A stretch of DNA of 64,000 nt from Streptomyces venezuelae (GTDB taxonomy: Bacteria; Actinomycetota; Actinomycetes; Streptomycetales; Streptomycetaceae), in NCBI RefSeq assembly GCF_008642335.1, contig NZ_CP029191.1, positions 4,960,001 to 5,024,000 of the forward strand. The letters are read 5' to 3'. Below the pieces are notes generated by a model that ran no database searches, was not told the origin of the DNA, and was given only the letters and a program-made list of their open reading frames with translations. The position numbers and the translations under genes are program-made. Positions 15,093 to 20,376 of this stretch are shown in pieces. Position 1 is the first letter of the stretch, and each line of letters starts with the position of its first letter.

Positions 15093-15848
15093 CTAGAGAG
15101 GCAGGCGGCGGAACACCGGTCGCGGCGCGTGCCGCAGCGCCGACATGACGAGGCGCAGCGCCCCCGGCACCCACACCGTCTCCGAGCGCCGCCGCAGCCC
15201 GGTCTCGATGGCCGCGGCCACCGCGTCCGGCGTGGTCGCCATGGGGGCCTCCTCCAGGCCCGCCGTCATCTTCGAGCGCACGAAGCCGGGCCGGACGACC
15301 ATCACGTGGACCCCCGTGCCGTGCAGCGCGTCGCCGAGGCCCTGCGCGAACGCGTCGAGGCCAGCCTTGCTGGAGCCGTAGATGAAGTTCGAGCGGCGCG
15401 CCCGCTCGCCCGCCACCGAGGAGAGCACCACCAGGGAGCCGTGGCCCTGGGACTGCAGGGCCCGCGCGCAGACCAGGCCGGCCGAGACCGCGCCTGTGTA
15501 GTTGGTCTGGGCGACGCGCACCGCCGCGAGGGGCTCGTCCTCGTCGCGTGCCTGGTCGCCGAGGACGCCGAAGGCGAGGAGCACCATGTCGATGTCACCC
15601 TCGGTGAAGATCTTGCCGAGGGACTCCTCGTGGGACTCGGGGTCGAGCGCGTCGAAGGCGACGGTCTTGACGTCCGCGCCCATGTCGCGCAGTCCCGCGG
15701 CGGCCTTCTCCAGGGCGGGCGACGGGCGCCCGGCGAGCCACACGGTGCGGGTGCGGCGGGCGACGAGGCGCCGTGCGGTGGCGAGGCCGATCTCGGAGGT
15801 GCCGCCGAGGACGAGCAGGGACTGAGGGGTGCCGAAGGCGTCTTTCAT
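15093..15848 (-). CDS. dprE2: DprE2-like decaprenylphospho-keto-pentose reductase (SDR)
   Basis: This is a short-chain dehydrogenase of 251 residues. It has the NAD-binding LVLGGTSEIGLATA motif, the NYTG segment, catalytic Ser in VVLSSVAGERAR and YGSSK (Y-x-x-x-K). The LGGTSEIG start and the C-terminal RLVMSALRHAPRPVFRRLPL extension match DprE2, the second half of the epimerase that turns polyprenyl-phosphoryl-ribose into polyprenyl-phosphoryl-arabinose. It follows dprE1 at 40 bases and divergent genes encode the earlier steps, which supports this reading over a generic SDR. ATG 15848 has AGGAG upstream. NADH dependence is known for the family, not shown here. Confidence 0.85.
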   Translation of the reverse strand: MKDAFGTPQSLLVLGGTSEIGLATARRLVARRTRTVWLAGRPSPALEKAAAGLRDMGADVKTVAFDALDPESHEESLGKIFTEGDIDMVLLAFGVLGDQARDEDEPLAAVRVAQTNYTGAVSAGLVCARALQSQGHGSLVVLSSVAGERARRSNFIYGSSKAGLDAFAQGLGDALHGTGVHVMVVRPGFVRSKMTAGLEEAPMATTPDAVAAAIETGLRRRSETVWVPGALRLVMSALRHAPRPVFRRLPL

Positions 15849-15888
15849 GTGTACCGGTCTCCTAGGGGGCTCAGAGAACTCAGAGGAC

Positions 15889-17325
15889 TCAGAGGGTGAG
15901 GCGGCGGGAGAGGTCCGAGCGGAAGACGCCGCGCGGGTCGAGCTCGGCCCGCAGGGCGCGGAAGTCGTCGAGCCGCGGATACATCGCGGCGAGCATCTCG
16001 GGCCGCAGGCGCGAGTCCTTGGCGAGGTAGACACGCCCGTCGGCGGCGGCCACCTCCTCGTCGAGCTCGTCGAGGAAGGCGCCGAGCCCCGGGAGGTTCG
16101 CCGGGATGTCGAGTGCGAGGGTCCAGCCCGGCATGGGGAAGGAGAGCCAGCCCGGATCGCTTTCTCCGAAGCGCTTCAGCACGGCGAGGAAGGACGGGCA
16201 GCCGCGCTCCGAGATGCGCCGCACGATGTGGCGCAGGGCCTCCTCCTTGCCGTACCCGACGACGAATTGGTACTGCACGAAGCCACTGCGGCCGTAGACG
16301 CGGTTCCAGTGGGGGACGCCGTCCAGCGGGTGGAAGAAGGTGGAGATCTTCTGCAGCTCACCGGTGCGGGAGCGGGGCGCCTTGCGGTACCAGAGCTCGT
16401 TGAAGAGGCCCACCGACGCCTTGCCGAGCAGCCCCTCCGGGAGGAAGGAGGGGGCGGCGGGCAACTGTCCGGGGCGGAACGCGAGGGGGGCTCTACGCGC
16501 GCGTGCCCGTTCCGGGAGCGCGTCCAGAGGGGCGTGGTCGCCGCGGGTCAGGACCGAGCGGCCCATGGCGGCGCCGCGCGCGAGGAGGTCGATCCAGGCG
16601 ACCGAGTAGCGGTAGCGGTGGTCGGTCGCGGTGAGGCGGGCCATCAAGTCGTCGAGGTCCGTGGCCCGTTCCGTGTCGACCGCCATCAAGGAGGTCTCCA
16701 CGGGGAGGAGTTGCACGGTCGCCGAGAGGATGACGCCGGTCAGGCCCATGCCTCCGGCCGTCGCGTCGAACAGGGCGTCGCCCGGCCCGACCGTACGGAC
16801 CGTGCCGTCGGCGGTCAGGACGTCCATCGCGAGGACGTGCCGGGAGAAGGACCCCGAGACGTGGTGGTTCTTGCCGTGGATGTCGGCGCCGATGGCCCCG
16901 CCGACCGTCACGTAACGGGTCCCGGGCGTCACGGGGACGAACCAGCCGAGCGGGAGCAGGACTTCCATCAGGTGGTGCAGCGAGACGCCCGCGTCGCAGA
17001 CGACGGTGGCCGCGGGGGCACCGGTGTCCGACGTGCGCGTGGTGTCGATGACGCGGATGCGGTCGAGGCCCGTCATGTCGAAGACGGCGCCGCCCGCGTT
17101 CTGTGCCGCGTCTCCGTAGGCACGCCCCAGGCCGCGTGCGATGCCGCCGCGCTCCCCGCACTCGCGCACCGCGGCCGCGGCCTCCTCCTGCGTCCGGGGT
17201 CTCACCAGCATCGCGGTGGTCGGTGCGGTGCGGCCCCACCCCGAGACGGACACGGCGGGCGACGTGGGGGCCGAGGTGGGGGCCGAGGCGCGGGTACGGG
17301 AATCGGCGGGGGAGTCGGCAGGCAT
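15889..17325 (-). CDS. dprE1: DprE1-like FAD-dependent decaprenylphosphoryl-ribose 2'-oxidase
   Basis: This FAD-binding (PCMH/VAO type) oxidoreductase has about 478 residues. Matches to the DprE1 family are ARGLGRAYGDAAQN, the TVGGAIGADIHGKNHHVSG flavin-binding segment, FVQYQFVVGYG, GCPSFLAVLKRFG and the C-terminal YLAKDSRLRPE. The last includes the lysine that contacts substrate in the mycobacterial enzyme. DprE1 oxidises the 2'-OH of polyprenyl-phosphoryl-ribose; DprE2 then reduces the ketone. A cysteine sits in the GCPSFL segment, near where mycobacteria have the benzothiazinone-reactive cysteine, but alignment is needed. ATG 17325 is chosen; a GTG at 17361 is an alternative giving 12 more residues. 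A Thr/Ser/Ala-rich N-terminal tail precedes the domain. Confidence 0.88.
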   Translation of the reverse strand: MPADSPADSRTRASAPTSAPTSPAVSVSGWGRTAPTTAMLVRPRTQEEAAAAVRECGERGGIARGLGRAYGDAAQNAGGAVFDMTGLDRIRVIDTTRTSDTGAPAATVVCDAGVSLHHLMEVLLPLGWFVPVTPGTRYVTVGGAIGADIHGKNHHVSGSFSRHVLAMDVLTADGTVRTVGPGDALFDATAGGMGLTGVILSATVQLLPVETSLMAVDTERATDLDDLMARLTATDHRYRYSVAWIDLLARGAAMGRSVLTRGDHAPLDALPERARARRAPLAFRPGQLPAAPSFLPEGLLGKASVGLFNELWYRKAPRSRTGELQKISTFFHPLDGVPHWNRVYGRSGFVQYQFVVGYGKEEALRHIVRRISERGCPSFLAVLKRFGESDPGWLSFPMPGWTLALDIPANLPGLGAFLDELDEEVAAADGRVYLAKDSRLRPEMLAAMYPRLDDFRALRAELDPRGVFRSDLSRRLTL

Positions 17326-17416
17326 GCCTGCGACCGTATCGCCCAAACCCGGGCAATTCACTCAAACACGTCCTGGCTCTCACCGAAATGGGTGATTGAG
17401 CGAGTGTCATCCTAGA

Positions 17417-17447
17417 TTGACGTAATTATTCGGATGTTGCCTAGAAG
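17417..17447 (+). promoter_or_regulatory. Candidate promoter for PAP2-ubiA-gtrA operon
   Basis: TTGACG (17417-17422) and TAGAAG (17442-17447) are 19 bases apart in a locally AT-rich stretch between the divergent dprE1 and PAP2 genes. The spacing is slightly long for a housekeeping promoter, so the call is tentative. Confidence 0.4.
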
Positions 17448-17509
17448 AGTCGAGATGCCGAGATGCCCGGCCACCGAACGCTCTCGAATGTCTTCGGAAT
17501 AGAGGCGAC

Positions 17510-18046
17510 ATGCACGACATGGACCACCGGTTGCTGTCGGCCCTGCGCGACTGCGGCAGCGACGCGCGCGTGGCGGCCGCCGCCCGCGCCCTGTCCCGCA
17601 CCGGCGAGCACGGCGCACTCTGGATCGCCGCAGGCCTGGCGGGCGCCGCCGTCGACCGCGAACGCCGGGGCGCCTGGCTGCGCGGCACCGCCCTCACCGC
17701 CGCCGCCCACCTGGCCAGTATGGGCGTCAAGCGCGTCGTGCGCCGCCCGCGCCCCGCCGCCCTGGGGGGCATCGAACCTCTCGTACGCACCGCGGGCCGG
17801 CACTCCTTCCCCAGCTCGCACGCCACCTCCGCCGCCGCGGCCGTCGTCGCGTACGGCGCGCTGCGCCCCGTCGGAGCCCACCTCCTGCCGCCACTGGCCG
17901 CCGCGATGTGCGTCTCCCGGATGGTCGTCGGCGTCCACTACCCCTCGGACGTGGCCGCGGGCGCGGCGCTCGGCGCGCTCACCGCGCGCGCGGGCGCGGG
18001 CTGGATGAACGCGGCCCGGATGAACGGAGGCCGCACCGATGCCTGA
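17510..18046 (+). CDS. PAP2-family phosphatase, probable 5'-phosphoribosyl-polyprenyl-phosphate phosphatase
   Basis: A 178-residue membrane phosphatase with all three PAP2 signature motifs: KRVVRRPRP, SFPSSHAT, and SRMVVGVHYPSDV with the catalytic histidine. Three to four membrane helices surround them. The gene overlaps the UbiA-like gene by eight bases and is divergent from dprE1/dprE2. In mycobacteria a PAP2 protein next to UbiA removes the 5-phosphate from decaprenyl-phosphoryl-5-phosphoribose, so the same step is proposed here by context. A general undecaprenyl-pyrophosphatase role is the alternative. Confidence 0.82.
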   Translation: MHDMDHRLLSALRDCGSDARVAAAARALSRTGEHGALWIAAGLAGAAVDRERRGAWLRGTALTAAAHLASMGVKRVVRRPRPAALGGIEPLVRTAGRHSFPSSHATSAAAAVVAYGALRPVGAHLLPPLAAAMCVSRMVVGVHYPSDVAAGAALGALTARAGAGWMNAARMNGGRTDA

Positions 18047-18995
18047 ACCCGTCGCCACGCTCCTCGAACGGCCCGGACCGCCCCGGACACCGCGCCAGGG
18101 CGCCGTCGGCCTGCCGCTCGGCCTCCTGAGGACCGCACGCCCCCGCCAGTGGGTGAAGAACGTCCTCGTCGTCGCCGCCCCCGCGGCCGCCGGTGAACTC
18201 TTCTCGCGGCACGCCGTCACTCAAGTCGCGATCGTTTTCGTCCTGTTCACCGCCGCCGCGTCCGCCGTCTACCTGATCAACGACGCCCGCGACGCCGACG
18301 CCGACCGCGCGCACCCCACCAAGTGCCGCAGACCGGTCGCCTGCGGACAGGTGCCGGTGCCCGTCGCGTACGCCGTGGGAGGGCTCCTCGCCGTCCTCGC
18401 GCCGACGGCCGCCACCATCCTGTGCACGCCGCTCACCGCGGCGCTCCTGGCCGCGTACGTGGGCATGCAACTCGCCTACTGCATCAGCCTCAAGCACGTC
18501 CTCGTCGTCGACCTCACCATCGTCACGACCGGCTTCCTGATGCGTGCCATGATCGGCGGCCTCGCGCTCGACATCCCGCTGTCGCGCTGGTTCCTGATCA
18601 CCACGGGCTTCTGCGCGCTCTTCATGGTCTCCGCCAAGCGCTACTCCGAAGCCGTCCAGATGTCCGCGAGCTCCGGGGAGCTGGGCGCCACGCGCGCGTT
18701 GCTCACCGAGTACACCACCGGGTACCTGCGCTTCGTGTGGCAACTGGCCGCGGGCGTCGCCGTCCTCGCGTACTGCCTGTGGGCGATGGAGGAGGGCGGC
18801 ACCGCCGACGGCGGCTCCCTGCCCTGGCGCCAGCTGTCCATGGCCGCGTTCATCCTCGCCATCCTGCGCTACGCCGTCTTCGCCGACCGCGGCACCGCCG
18901 GAGAGCCCGAGGACGTCGTCCTGCGGGACAGGGCGCTCGCCGTGATCGGCGTGGTGTGGCTCGCCATGTACGGGCTCGCGGTCGCGGACTGGTGA
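18039..18995 (+). CDS. ubiA: UbiA-type decaprenyl-phosphate phosphoribosyltransferase (DPPR synthase)
   Basis: The 318-residue polytopic membrane protein belongs to the UbiA prenyltransferase superfamily, with about nine helices. The first Asp motif reads YLINDARDADADRAHPTK, followed by CRRPVACG. This N-D-x-x-D-x-x-x-D-x-x-HPxK-x-x-RP pattern is that of decaprenyl-phosphate:PRPP phosphoribosyltransferases rather than of quinone or heme O enzymes. A second motif region around VDLTIVTTGFLMRAMIGG is also typical. It would transfer phosphoribose from PRPP to a polyprenyl phosphate, the first committed step. ATG 18039 overlaps the PAP2 stop and its own stop overlaps the next start (GTGA), so PAP2-ubiA-gtrA are coupled. 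Confidence 0.88.
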   Translation: MPEPVATLLERPGPPRTPRQGAVGLPLGLLRTARPRQWVKNVLVVAAPAAAGELFSRHAVTQVAIVFVLFTAAASAVYLINDARDADADRAHPTKCRRPVACGQVPVPVAYAVGGLLAVLAPTAATILCTPLTAALLAAYVGMQLAYCISLKHVLVVDLTIVTTGFLMRAMIGGLALDIPLSRWFLITTGFCALFMVSAKRYSEAVQMSASSGELGATRALLTEYTTGYLRFVWQLAAGVAVLAYCLWAMEEGGTADGGSLPWRQLSMAAFILAILRYAVFADRGTAGEPEDVVLRDRALAVIGVVWLAMYGLAVADW

Positions 18996-19489
18996 GTCGC
19001 CGACCGGTGAGTGTGACGTCCCTGCGCGTACGGCTGCGCGCGCTCGGGCCCGAACTGCTCGGCTTCGCCGCCGCCGGGATCTGCGCGTACGCCGCCGACC
19101 TCGGCCTCTTCATCTGGCTGCGTGGACCCGTCGGCCTGGACCCGCTCACCGCCAAATCCCTCTCCTTCGTGGCGGGGTGTTCCGTGGCGTACGCCGGCAA
19201 CGCCCTCGGCACCTACCGCGGGAAGACCGCGGAGATCTCGCGGCTGCGCCAGTACGCGGTGTTCTTCGCCGTCAACATCGCGGGCGCCCTCGTCCAGCTG
19301 CTGTGCATCGCCGTGTCCCACTACGGACTCGGTCACACCTCGCAGCGCGCGGACACCGTCTCGGGCGCCGGCATCGGTATGGCACTCGCCACTGTTCTGC
19401 GCTTCTGGGGTACCCGGACCTTGGTCTTCCGCACAACGGGCAGGACAACAGGCAGGACACCAGGCACGGAGGCGTCATGGACTGGCTGA
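18992..19489 (+). CDS. GtrA-family membrane protein
   Basis: A 165-residue protein with four transmembrane helices of the GtrA family (FAAAGICAYAADLGLFIWL, NALGTYRGKTAEISRLRQYAVFF). GtrA proteins help move polyprenyl-linked sugars across the membrane or act as scaffolds; the mycobacterial example next to dprE1 has been linked to arabinosyl-phosphoryl-decaprenol use. GTG 18992 overlaps the ubiA stop by four bases; GTG 19007 is an alternative. The last 13 bases overlap the YihY-family gene. Placement makes it the probable flippase or accessory of this pathway, which is inference. Confidence 0.85.
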   Translation: MSRRPVSVTSLRVRLRALGPELLGFAAAGICAYAADLGLFIWLRGPVGLDPLTAKSLSFVAGCSVAYAGNALGTYRGKTAEISRLRQYAVFFAVNIAGALVQLLCIAVSHYGLGHTSQRADTVSGAGIGMALATVLRFWGTRTLVFRTTGRTTGRTPGTEASWTG

Positions 19490-20376
19490 AGAAACTTCCC
19501 GGCATCGGGCCGCTCGTCGCGAAAGGCATGCGCACACACGCGTGGCAGTCCTACGAACGACTCGACGAGGTGCACTGGACGCGCCTCGCCGCCGCCATGA
19601 CGTTCATCAGTTTCCTCGCGCTCTTCCCGCTGCTCACCGTCGCCGCCGCGATCGCCGCGGCGACGCTCTCGAAGAAGCAGCAGGACACGCTGGAGAGCAA
19701 GATCTCCGAGCAGGTCCCCGGCATCTCCGACCAGCTGAACCTGGACGCCCTCGTCGAGAACGCGGGCACCGTCGGCCTCGTCGCGGGCGCCCTGCTGCTC
19801 TTCACCGGCATCGGCTGGGTCGGCTCGATGCGGGAGTGCCTGCGGGCCGTCTGGGAGCTGCCGGACGAGGAGGAGAATCCCGTCCTGCGCAAGGTCAAGG
19901 ACGCGGGCGTGCTGTTCGGGCTCGGCGGCGCGGGACTCGCGTCGTTCGCCGCGTCCGCGCTCGCGTCGACCGCCGTCGGCCGGACCGCCGACCTGTTCGG
20001 CATCGACGAGCGGGGCTGGGGCACGGTGCTGCTCCAGGTCCTCGCGTTCGCCATCGCCGTCCTCGCGGACTTCCTGCTGCTGCTCTACGTCCTGACGCTG
20101 CTGCCCGGCGTACAGCCGGACCGGCGGCGGCTGATCACCGCCGCGCTGATCGGCGCGGCCGGCTTCGAACTGCTCAAGCTGTTGCTCGGCGGCTACATGA
20201 AGGGCGTCGCCGCGAAGAACATGTACGGCGCCTTCGGAGTGCCCGTCGCGCTCCTCCTGTGGATCAACTTCACGGCGAAGCTGCTGTTGTTCTGCGCGGC
20301 GTGGACGGCGACGCACAGCGCGTCGTCGTCCACGCCGAAGGAAGAGGAGGCGTCAGGCCCCTCACGTCAGTCCTGA
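19477..20376 (+). CDS. YihY/BrkB-family inner membrane protein
   Basis: This 299-residue protein with six membrane helices belongs to the YihY/BrkB family, once misannotated as ribonuclease BN. The conserved AAAMTFISFLALFPLLTV opening and the YGAFGVPVALLLWINFTAKLLLF ending are present, together with GIGWVGSMRECLRAVW. Molecular function is unknown. ATG 19477 follows GGAGG by four bases and lies inside gtrA, so it is co-translated with the polyprenyl-sugar genes. It may belong to that pathway or simply share the operon. Its last ten bases overlap the 3' end of the convergent carboxypeptidase gene. Confidence 0.87.
   Translation: MDWLKKLPGIGPLVAKGMRTHAWQSYERLDEVHWTRLAAAMTFISFLALFPLLTVAAAIAAATLSKKQQDTLESKISEQVPGISDQLNLDALVENAGTVGLVAGALLLFTGIGWVGSMRECLRAVWELPDEEENPVLRKVKDAGVLFGLGGAGLASFAASALASTAVGRTADLFGIDERGWGTVLLQVLAFAIAVLADFLLLLYVLTLLPGVQPDRRRLITAALIGAAGFELLKLLLGGYMKGVAAKNMYGAFGVPVALLLWINFTAKLLLFCAAWTATHSASSSTPKEEEASGPSRQS

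Follow-up and report, generated by a model that had tools for sequence, protein, structure and literature searches.

What is a set of genes resembling the mycobacterial polyprenyl-phosphoryl-arabinose genes doing in Streptomyces, in which arabinan is, to our knowledge, not a known wall component? The question was raised by a locus in a window of 64,000 nucleotides (C1:4960001-5024000) of the 8.05 Mb, single-contig genome of Streptomyces venezuelae, where genes for DprE2 and DprE1 stand beside genes for a PAP2 phosphatase, a UbiA-fold protein, a GtrA-family protein and a YihY-type protein. Analysis of these genes, of the rest of the genome and of other actinobacterial genomes suggested, with a probability of roughly 70%, that the locus makes polyprenyl-phosphoryl-D-arabinofuranose, which would serve arabinosylation outside the membrane but not mycobacterial arabinogalactan. 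This points to an arabinose-bearing surface molecule that would be new for the genus.

The assignment of the window UbiA protein as a decaprenyl-phosphate phosphoribosyltransferase (DPPR synthase) is supported by NCBIfam, by the PDB and by its predicted active-site residues. The NCBIfam model matched is named 'decaprenyl-phosphate phosphoribosyltransferase', and the only PDB matches were chains of this enzyme, 8j8j (E = 2.7e-77) and 8j8k (E = 1.2e-67). Eleven residues that bind 5-phosphoribosyl-1-pyrophosphate (PRPP) or belong to the active site have been described for Rv3806c (R22, K28, Y70, N73, D77, K87, R90, Q135, Y138, K143 and Y157; PMC10994848). The window protein is identical at ten of them and has Phe in place of Tyr157, a substitution also reported for some mycobacteria (PMC10994848). 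An earlier interpretation made from the letters of the window (the sequence-only reading) had named a position in a quinone or other UbiA clade as the outcome that would speak against it; this was not so, as model, structure and residues all gave DPPR synthase. Three further UbiA genes are present in the genome, one of them MqnP-like (467.3 bits, cut-off 420), one nearest to a SCO3242-type model (249.7 bits, just below the cut-off of 260) and one with a strong generic UbiA match by Pfam.

DprE2, DprE1 and UbiA all scored above the NCBI equivalog cut-offs for decaprenyl-phosphoryl-arabinose enzymes (NCBIfam, Table 1), and Pfam and NCBIfam agreed with the earlier gene names. The coordinates, with gene starts checked, bore out the arrangement described before, in which PAP2, UbiA, GtrA and YihY run in one direction, each gene overlapping the preceding one, and diverge from DprE2 and DprE1. 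PAP2 is located immediately 5' of UbiA also in Mycobacterium leprae, Nocardia and Corynebacterium loci, UbiA, DprE1 and DprE2 are clustered in many other actinobacterial loci, and the same gene order was found in Streptomyces loci, in which UbiA is up to 90% identical to the window protein. Given that the order is common to other actinobacterial loci, the co-location of the window genes is more than chance.

The locus shares with the mycobacterial pathway (Rv3806c, Rv3807c, DprE1, DprE2 and Rv3789) the equivalog families of UbiA, DprE1 and DprE2 and the order PAP2-UbiA. By homology, UbiA would transfer the ribose-5-phosphate moiety from PRPP onto polyprenyl phosphate, PAP2 would remove the 5-phosphate, DprE1 would oxidize C2 and DprE2 would carry out the reduction to the arabino form. 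The lipid-linked sugar might then be flipped across the membrane, perhaps by GtrA, and an AftB-family GT-C enzyme, possibly together with AftD, would transfer arabinofuranose to a surface polymer outside the membrane. The one-to-one correspondence with the mycobacterial donor steps that the sequence-only reading had proposed stood for DprE2, DprE1 and UbiA, by their equivalog scores, and did not extend to YihY. This gene was rejected as a pathway member and is probably a mere neighbour, because it stays where PAP2-UbiA-GtrA has been lost, being found beside DprE1 in 20/20 loci of this kind.

Table 1. Features of the donor locus, with positions counted in the window.
Feature	Position	Strand	Length and model scores
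DprE2, decaprenylphospho-beta-D-erythro-pentofuranosid-2-ulose 2-reductase	15093..15848	-	251 aa; NF053786 387.8 bits, cut-off 250
DprE1, decaprenylphosphoryl-beta-D-ribose oxidase	15889..17361	-	up to 490 aa; NF053785 681.1 bits, cut-off 500
Intergenic gap dprE1-PAP2 (divergent genes)	17362..17509		148 bases
PAP2 phosphatase at the Rv3807c place, proposed to remove the 5-phosphate	17510..18046	+	PF01569 59.2 bits
DPPR synthase, UbiA fold, Rv3806c type	18039..18995	+	NF008978 420.2 bits, cut-off 207
Membrane protein of the GtrA family, perhaps a flippase or helper	18992..19489	+	PF04138 75.1 bits
YihY/YhjD-type membrane protein, probably outside pathway	19477..20376	+	PF03631 162.7 bits

The window DprE1 matched PDB entry 4aut (E = 8.7e-120) and keeps Y82, H162, K164, Q363, Q365 and K448 in the active-site columns of the alignment, which we take to be equivalent, in position and in role, to Y60, H132, K134, Q334, Q336 and K418 of Mycobacterium tuberculosis. 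None of the six residue names was found in PMC4366402. The column of Cys387 (GWNVCVDF in 4aut) is Ala in the window DprE1, as it is in all 45 DprE1 sequences covering it from Streptomyces with the full gene set (two partial sequences do not cover it) and in one aligned mycobacterial-type sequence (L058). It is also Ala in 24 and Thr in six of 30 other actinobacterial DprE1, and Ala in 15, Ser in four and Thr in one of 20 orphan DprE1, that is, those from Streptomyces loci without PAP2-UbiA-GtrA. The change of Cys387 to Ser or Ala confers benzothiazinone resistance in M. tuberculosis (PMC4608729). The benzothiazinone sensitivity test proposed from the sequence would therefore mislead, since with Ala in the drug-binding column a negative outcome is probable even with a working pathway.

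If an arabinose donor is made, where could it be used? AftA (PF12250) and Emb (PF04602) gave no matches in the genome, with Corynebacterium glutamicum as a control that was positive for both, and mycobacterial arabinogalactan is therefore not expected, in line with what had been anticipated. The proposed genome search for GT-C arabinosyltransferases did recover AftB and AftD, which in mycobacteria act on wall or lipoglycan polymers. AftB (C1:2752130-2753935, L180:14131-15936) has 601 residues and matched the solved AftB structure 9dlf with residues 43-592 covered (E = 3.7e-77), and the conserved Asp pair (DD) of AftB is retained in 15 Streptomyces sequences and six sequences from mycolic-acid bacteria. 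One row of the AftB alignment (L150) was rejected as AftB on its 22% identity and branch of 6.6; the AftB of this genome stands independently on the 9dlf match. AftD (C1:2425371-2427335, 759 bits) contains the domains PF11847 (GT-C_AftD, 756.5 bits) and CBM_AftD (53.8 bits), and its best PDB match was 6w98 (E = 1.9e-151), which is listed as AftD in PMC11127046. The end use, previously given as unknown, is thereby narrowed to candidate enzymes, and the existence of a new glycan is an inference.

The distribution of these genes was surveyed in 296 genomes of the phylum and in 150 Streptomyces genomes, with presence statistics that take no account of kinship. In the phylum, clear DprE1 was found in 44 genomes (at least 464 bits, the next genome having 90 bits) and AftD in 40 (E up to 1e-30), with both in 30. 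When the eight genomes of one family (f3), taken as mycolic-acid bacteria from their high scores, were excluded, DprE1 was present in 36, AftD in 32 and both in 22 of 288 genomes. Elsewhere in the phylum the link of donor genes to arabinosyltransferases is physical: AftD and a GT4 gene adjoin UbiA-DprE1-DprE2 in Aeromicrobium stalagmiti (L151), an AftA-like gene (PF12250, 121.8 bits) adjoins the same three genes in a metagenome-assembled Nocardioidaceae genome (L152:4549-6456), outside the mycolic-acid bacteria, and in one distant family six genomes (G031, G091, G113, G156, G188 and G252) have AftD and DprE1 no more than about 25 kb apart.

In Streptomyces, DprE1 was found in 83/150 genomes (78 over the cut-off, one fragment at 308 bits), which contradicts the statement, concluded from one species, that the genus has no DprE1 orthologues (PMC4608729). 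A strong DPPR synthase was present in 57 genomes, another 11 had just a divergent homologue (158-189 bits), and no further homologue of the synthase was found in the 150 genomes down to E = 1e-13. AftD was found in 61 genomes and AftB in at least 16, a lower bound because at most eight first-look candidates per genome were scored in the AftB search. DprE1 was present in 56 of the 57 strong-synthase genomes, and 66 genomes had neither. All 16 AftB genomes found fall among the 57 with a strong synthase (hypergeometric, p = 4.2e-8, kinship uncorrected). AftD was also associated with DprE1 overall (47 genomes with both, 36 with DprE1 only, 14 with AftD only and 53 with neither; Fisher, p = 1.1e-5).

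Several observations weigh against the proposed pathway and its use. Among the 83 DprE1 genomes, the presence of AftD showed no relation to that of the synthase (33/23/14/13), and a DPPR synthase was altogether absent from 25 of the 61 AftD genomes. This weakens the idea that AftD alone uses the donor, and AftB, found with the synthase in 16/16 genomes, is the better candidate. In the genome studied, both enzymes are encoded far from the donor locus (AftB 2.2 Mb away), and AftB has an AMP-ligase gene on one side and ABC-transporter-like genes on the other, without adjoining glycan genes. PAP2 and GtrA reached no specific NCBIfam equivalog and were assigned by family and position. Finally, the search yielded no AftB and no AftD for 21 of the 57 synthase genomes, so that another transferase or another use of the donor is needed there. 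The donor could then be used not for a wall polymer but for a glycolipid, a glycoprotein or some natural product, an explanation that we consider unlikely, given the polymeric substrates of AftB and AftD in mycobacteria and the position of the locus between housekeeping genes, those upstream being glyA and trpS-like, with an immediate order that is the same in most Streptomyces loci read, and not in a biosynthetic gene cluster. A precedent for it is the Pseudomonas pilin, which receives lipid-linked arabinose (cited in PMC11127046).

The fate of the donor genes within Streptomyces bears on the function of DprE1. Among the 83 DprE1 genomes, 27 were without a strong DPPR synthase, and eight of these hold a divergent homologue elsewhere; as a donor source for orphan DprE1 this homologue is possible in these eight and was not found in the other 19. 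We read 20 of the 27 orphan loci (five of them from genomes with the divergent homologue), and in 20/20 DprE2, DprE1 and YihY were adjacent and the PAP2-UbiA-GtrA cassette was gone, a 30-residue GtrA remnant being kept in a single locus (L066). The cassette was lost in at least four independent events: the DprE1 tree needs five state changes, of which at least four are forced by well-supported branches, with the bootstrap not fully settled.

Orphan DprE1 was compared with DprE1 of the full set at 53 columns that show no variation among 30 DprE1 of other actinobacterial origin. These outgroup-defined columns were used because a first count had taken its columns from the full-set sequences and was hence biased. 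The 20 orphan sequences deviated at 2-15 of the 53 columns (median 9), as compared to 0-2 (median 1) for the 45 full-set sequences, and the worst-hit column, that of window K164 (presumably K134 in M. tuberculosis), was altered in 19/20. DprE2 deviated at 0-2 of 12 such columns in orphans and at none in the full set. The ratio of nonsynonymous to synonymous substitution rates (dN/dS) of DprE1 was 0.18-0.38 in six orphan pairs and 0.13-0.21 in eight full-set pairs, and that of DprE2 was similar in both. In the orphan DprE1-DprE2 pairs (L062-L077, L079-L081 and L022), DprE1 is open, with altered active-site columns and a dN/dS well below 1. We read this as DprE1 of the full set acting on the product of UbiA and being, after loss of the cassette, partly freed or put to another use, not discarded.

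Since DprE1 and DprE2 are retained in strains without DPPR synthase, the pair can serve something else, and UbiA and PAP2 might accordingly make polyprenyl-phosphoryl-ribose as the working donor, with DprE1-DprE2 acting on another substrate. We regard this as very improbable, as nearly all strong-synthase genomes also contain DprE1, its residues stay conserved only in those strains, and every genome in which an AftB homologue was found carries the full set. Likewise, the repeated loss of the cassette and the many genomes with neither DprE1 nor a strong synthase could mean that the window locus has become a non-functional relic. This too has very little to commend it, given that all window genes are open, that the residues lost in orphan DprE1 are intact in the window DprE1, and that dN/dS for the pair window/L098 is low (0.14 for DprE1 and 0.16 for DprE2). 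The repeated natural loss of donor genes offers a ready comparison and raises the question of the role of DprE1-DprE2 in strains that have undergone it.

Clues to the acceptor came from the surroundings of AftB, which were read at 15 loci, covering all AftB genomes but G326 and G373 (14 of 16), neighbouring genes being relied on only with BLAST, HMMER or Pfam support. At five of the 15 loci (L188, L189, L190, L193 and L195) AftB overlaps, or is located no more than about 60 bases after, a gene of the teichoic-acid-polymerase type, comprising GT2 and CDP-glycerol glycerophosphotransferase. PF04464 scored 392 and 396 bits in two L190 genes, and the remaining polymerase-like genes were identified by tblastn. 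The AftB sequences of the five loci form one clade with a support of 98/100, and because of this the pairing may be one event. Genomes G171 and G425 are close relatives in the AftB tree, and both have AftB about 17 kb from DprE1. Judging from gene order, the acceptor in one Streptomyces lineage is likely a teichoic-acid-like polyol-phosphate polymer. More tentatively, Streptomyces may possess a teichoic-acid-type wall polymer that bears arabinofuranose, in which AftB-family transferases would use polyprenyl-phosphoryl-arabinose to cap or decorate a polyol-phosphate chain, with DprE1 remodelled for another substrate after loss of the cassette; we consider this combination possible, though doubtful as a whole. 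Genome G339 carries AftB twice, behind teichoic-acid-polymerase-like genes (L193) and in a solitary context like that in the genome studied here (L194).

Arabinosylation of the Nod factor (Azorhizobium noeC region) uses a polyprenyl-phosphate arabinose donor. The proposed pathway resembles this system and that of the Pseudomonas pilin (TfpW; cited in PMC11127046) in using such a donor outside the mycolic-acid bacteria, and differs in acceptors and transferases. The Streptomyces genome shares with mycobacteria the coding of AftB and AftD homologues. It differs in being without AftA and Emb matches, in the distance of AftB and AftD from the donor genes and in Ala at the Cys387 column, and the donor genes are patchy within the genus. 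The use of lipid-linked pentofuranoses by GT-C enzymes outside mycobacteria is already published, for the three-component systems of Citrobacter youngae O1/O2 with their GT136 enzymes (Kelly et al. 2024, PMC11127046), which also combine a polyprenyl phosphoribose synthase with an extracytoplasmic GT-C enzyme and, when they use arabinofuranose, contain DprE1/E2 homologues (PMC11127046). In comparison, Streptomyces has a separate PAP2 phosphatase where these systems have a fused HAD domain, GtrA where they have a MATE flippase (no MATE search was made in Streptomyces), and AftB/AftD-type transferases, encoded outside the donor locus, where they have GT136. Streptomyces is not mentioned in the main text of PMC11127046.

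A galactose-Kdn polymer has been described for the Streptomyces envelope, as has a lipoteichoic acid bearing glucosamine (PMC3196553, which in the part available mentions arabinose just for lipoglycans in general), and teichulosonic acid is given as its main polymer (PMC11481543, in whose main text no word starts with 'arabin'). No report of the pathway, AftB or AftD in Streptomyces was found in the portions available of the full-text literature, including PMC2610374, PMC7688586 and PMC5296602, with subscription journals mostly uncovered. If both donor and arabinosylated polymer exist, a wall component would have been overlooked in a much-studied genus, and the mycobacterial drug targets DprE1, UbiA and AftB would be open to study in a harmless Streptomyces host.

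Some further observations concern related genes. The divergent DPPR-synthase-like proteins of some Streptomyces form a second family (158-189 bits), 31-35% identical to the window UbiA, and GT2-like genes, labelled by eye, stand beside the gene in most of six loci read (L092-L097, from G346, G107, G338, G430, G246 and G384). The whole AftD gene neighbourhood occurs without DprE1 in L082-L087 (G324, G341, G360, G379, G394 and G417), such genomes numbering 14 of 150. In the genome studied, AftD follows PgfA-like and GT4 genes and lies upstream of a methyltransferase gene. The PgfA-like gene ('cell envelope lipid trafficking protein', L013:5834-7120, C1:2421833-2423119; 329.6 bits, cut-off 160) is two genes before AftD, and PgfA-related genes are also found near AftD in genomes without DprE1, e.g. 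G085, G139 and G214. Three GT87 proteins were set aside as users of the donor, two (L014 and L015) as PimE-like and the third (L016) as a GT87-PAP2 fusion; in the latter (L016:7705-9771, C1:2346704-2348770), a GT87 glycosyltransferase and a PAP2-type phosphatase domain are joined in one protein of 688 residues.

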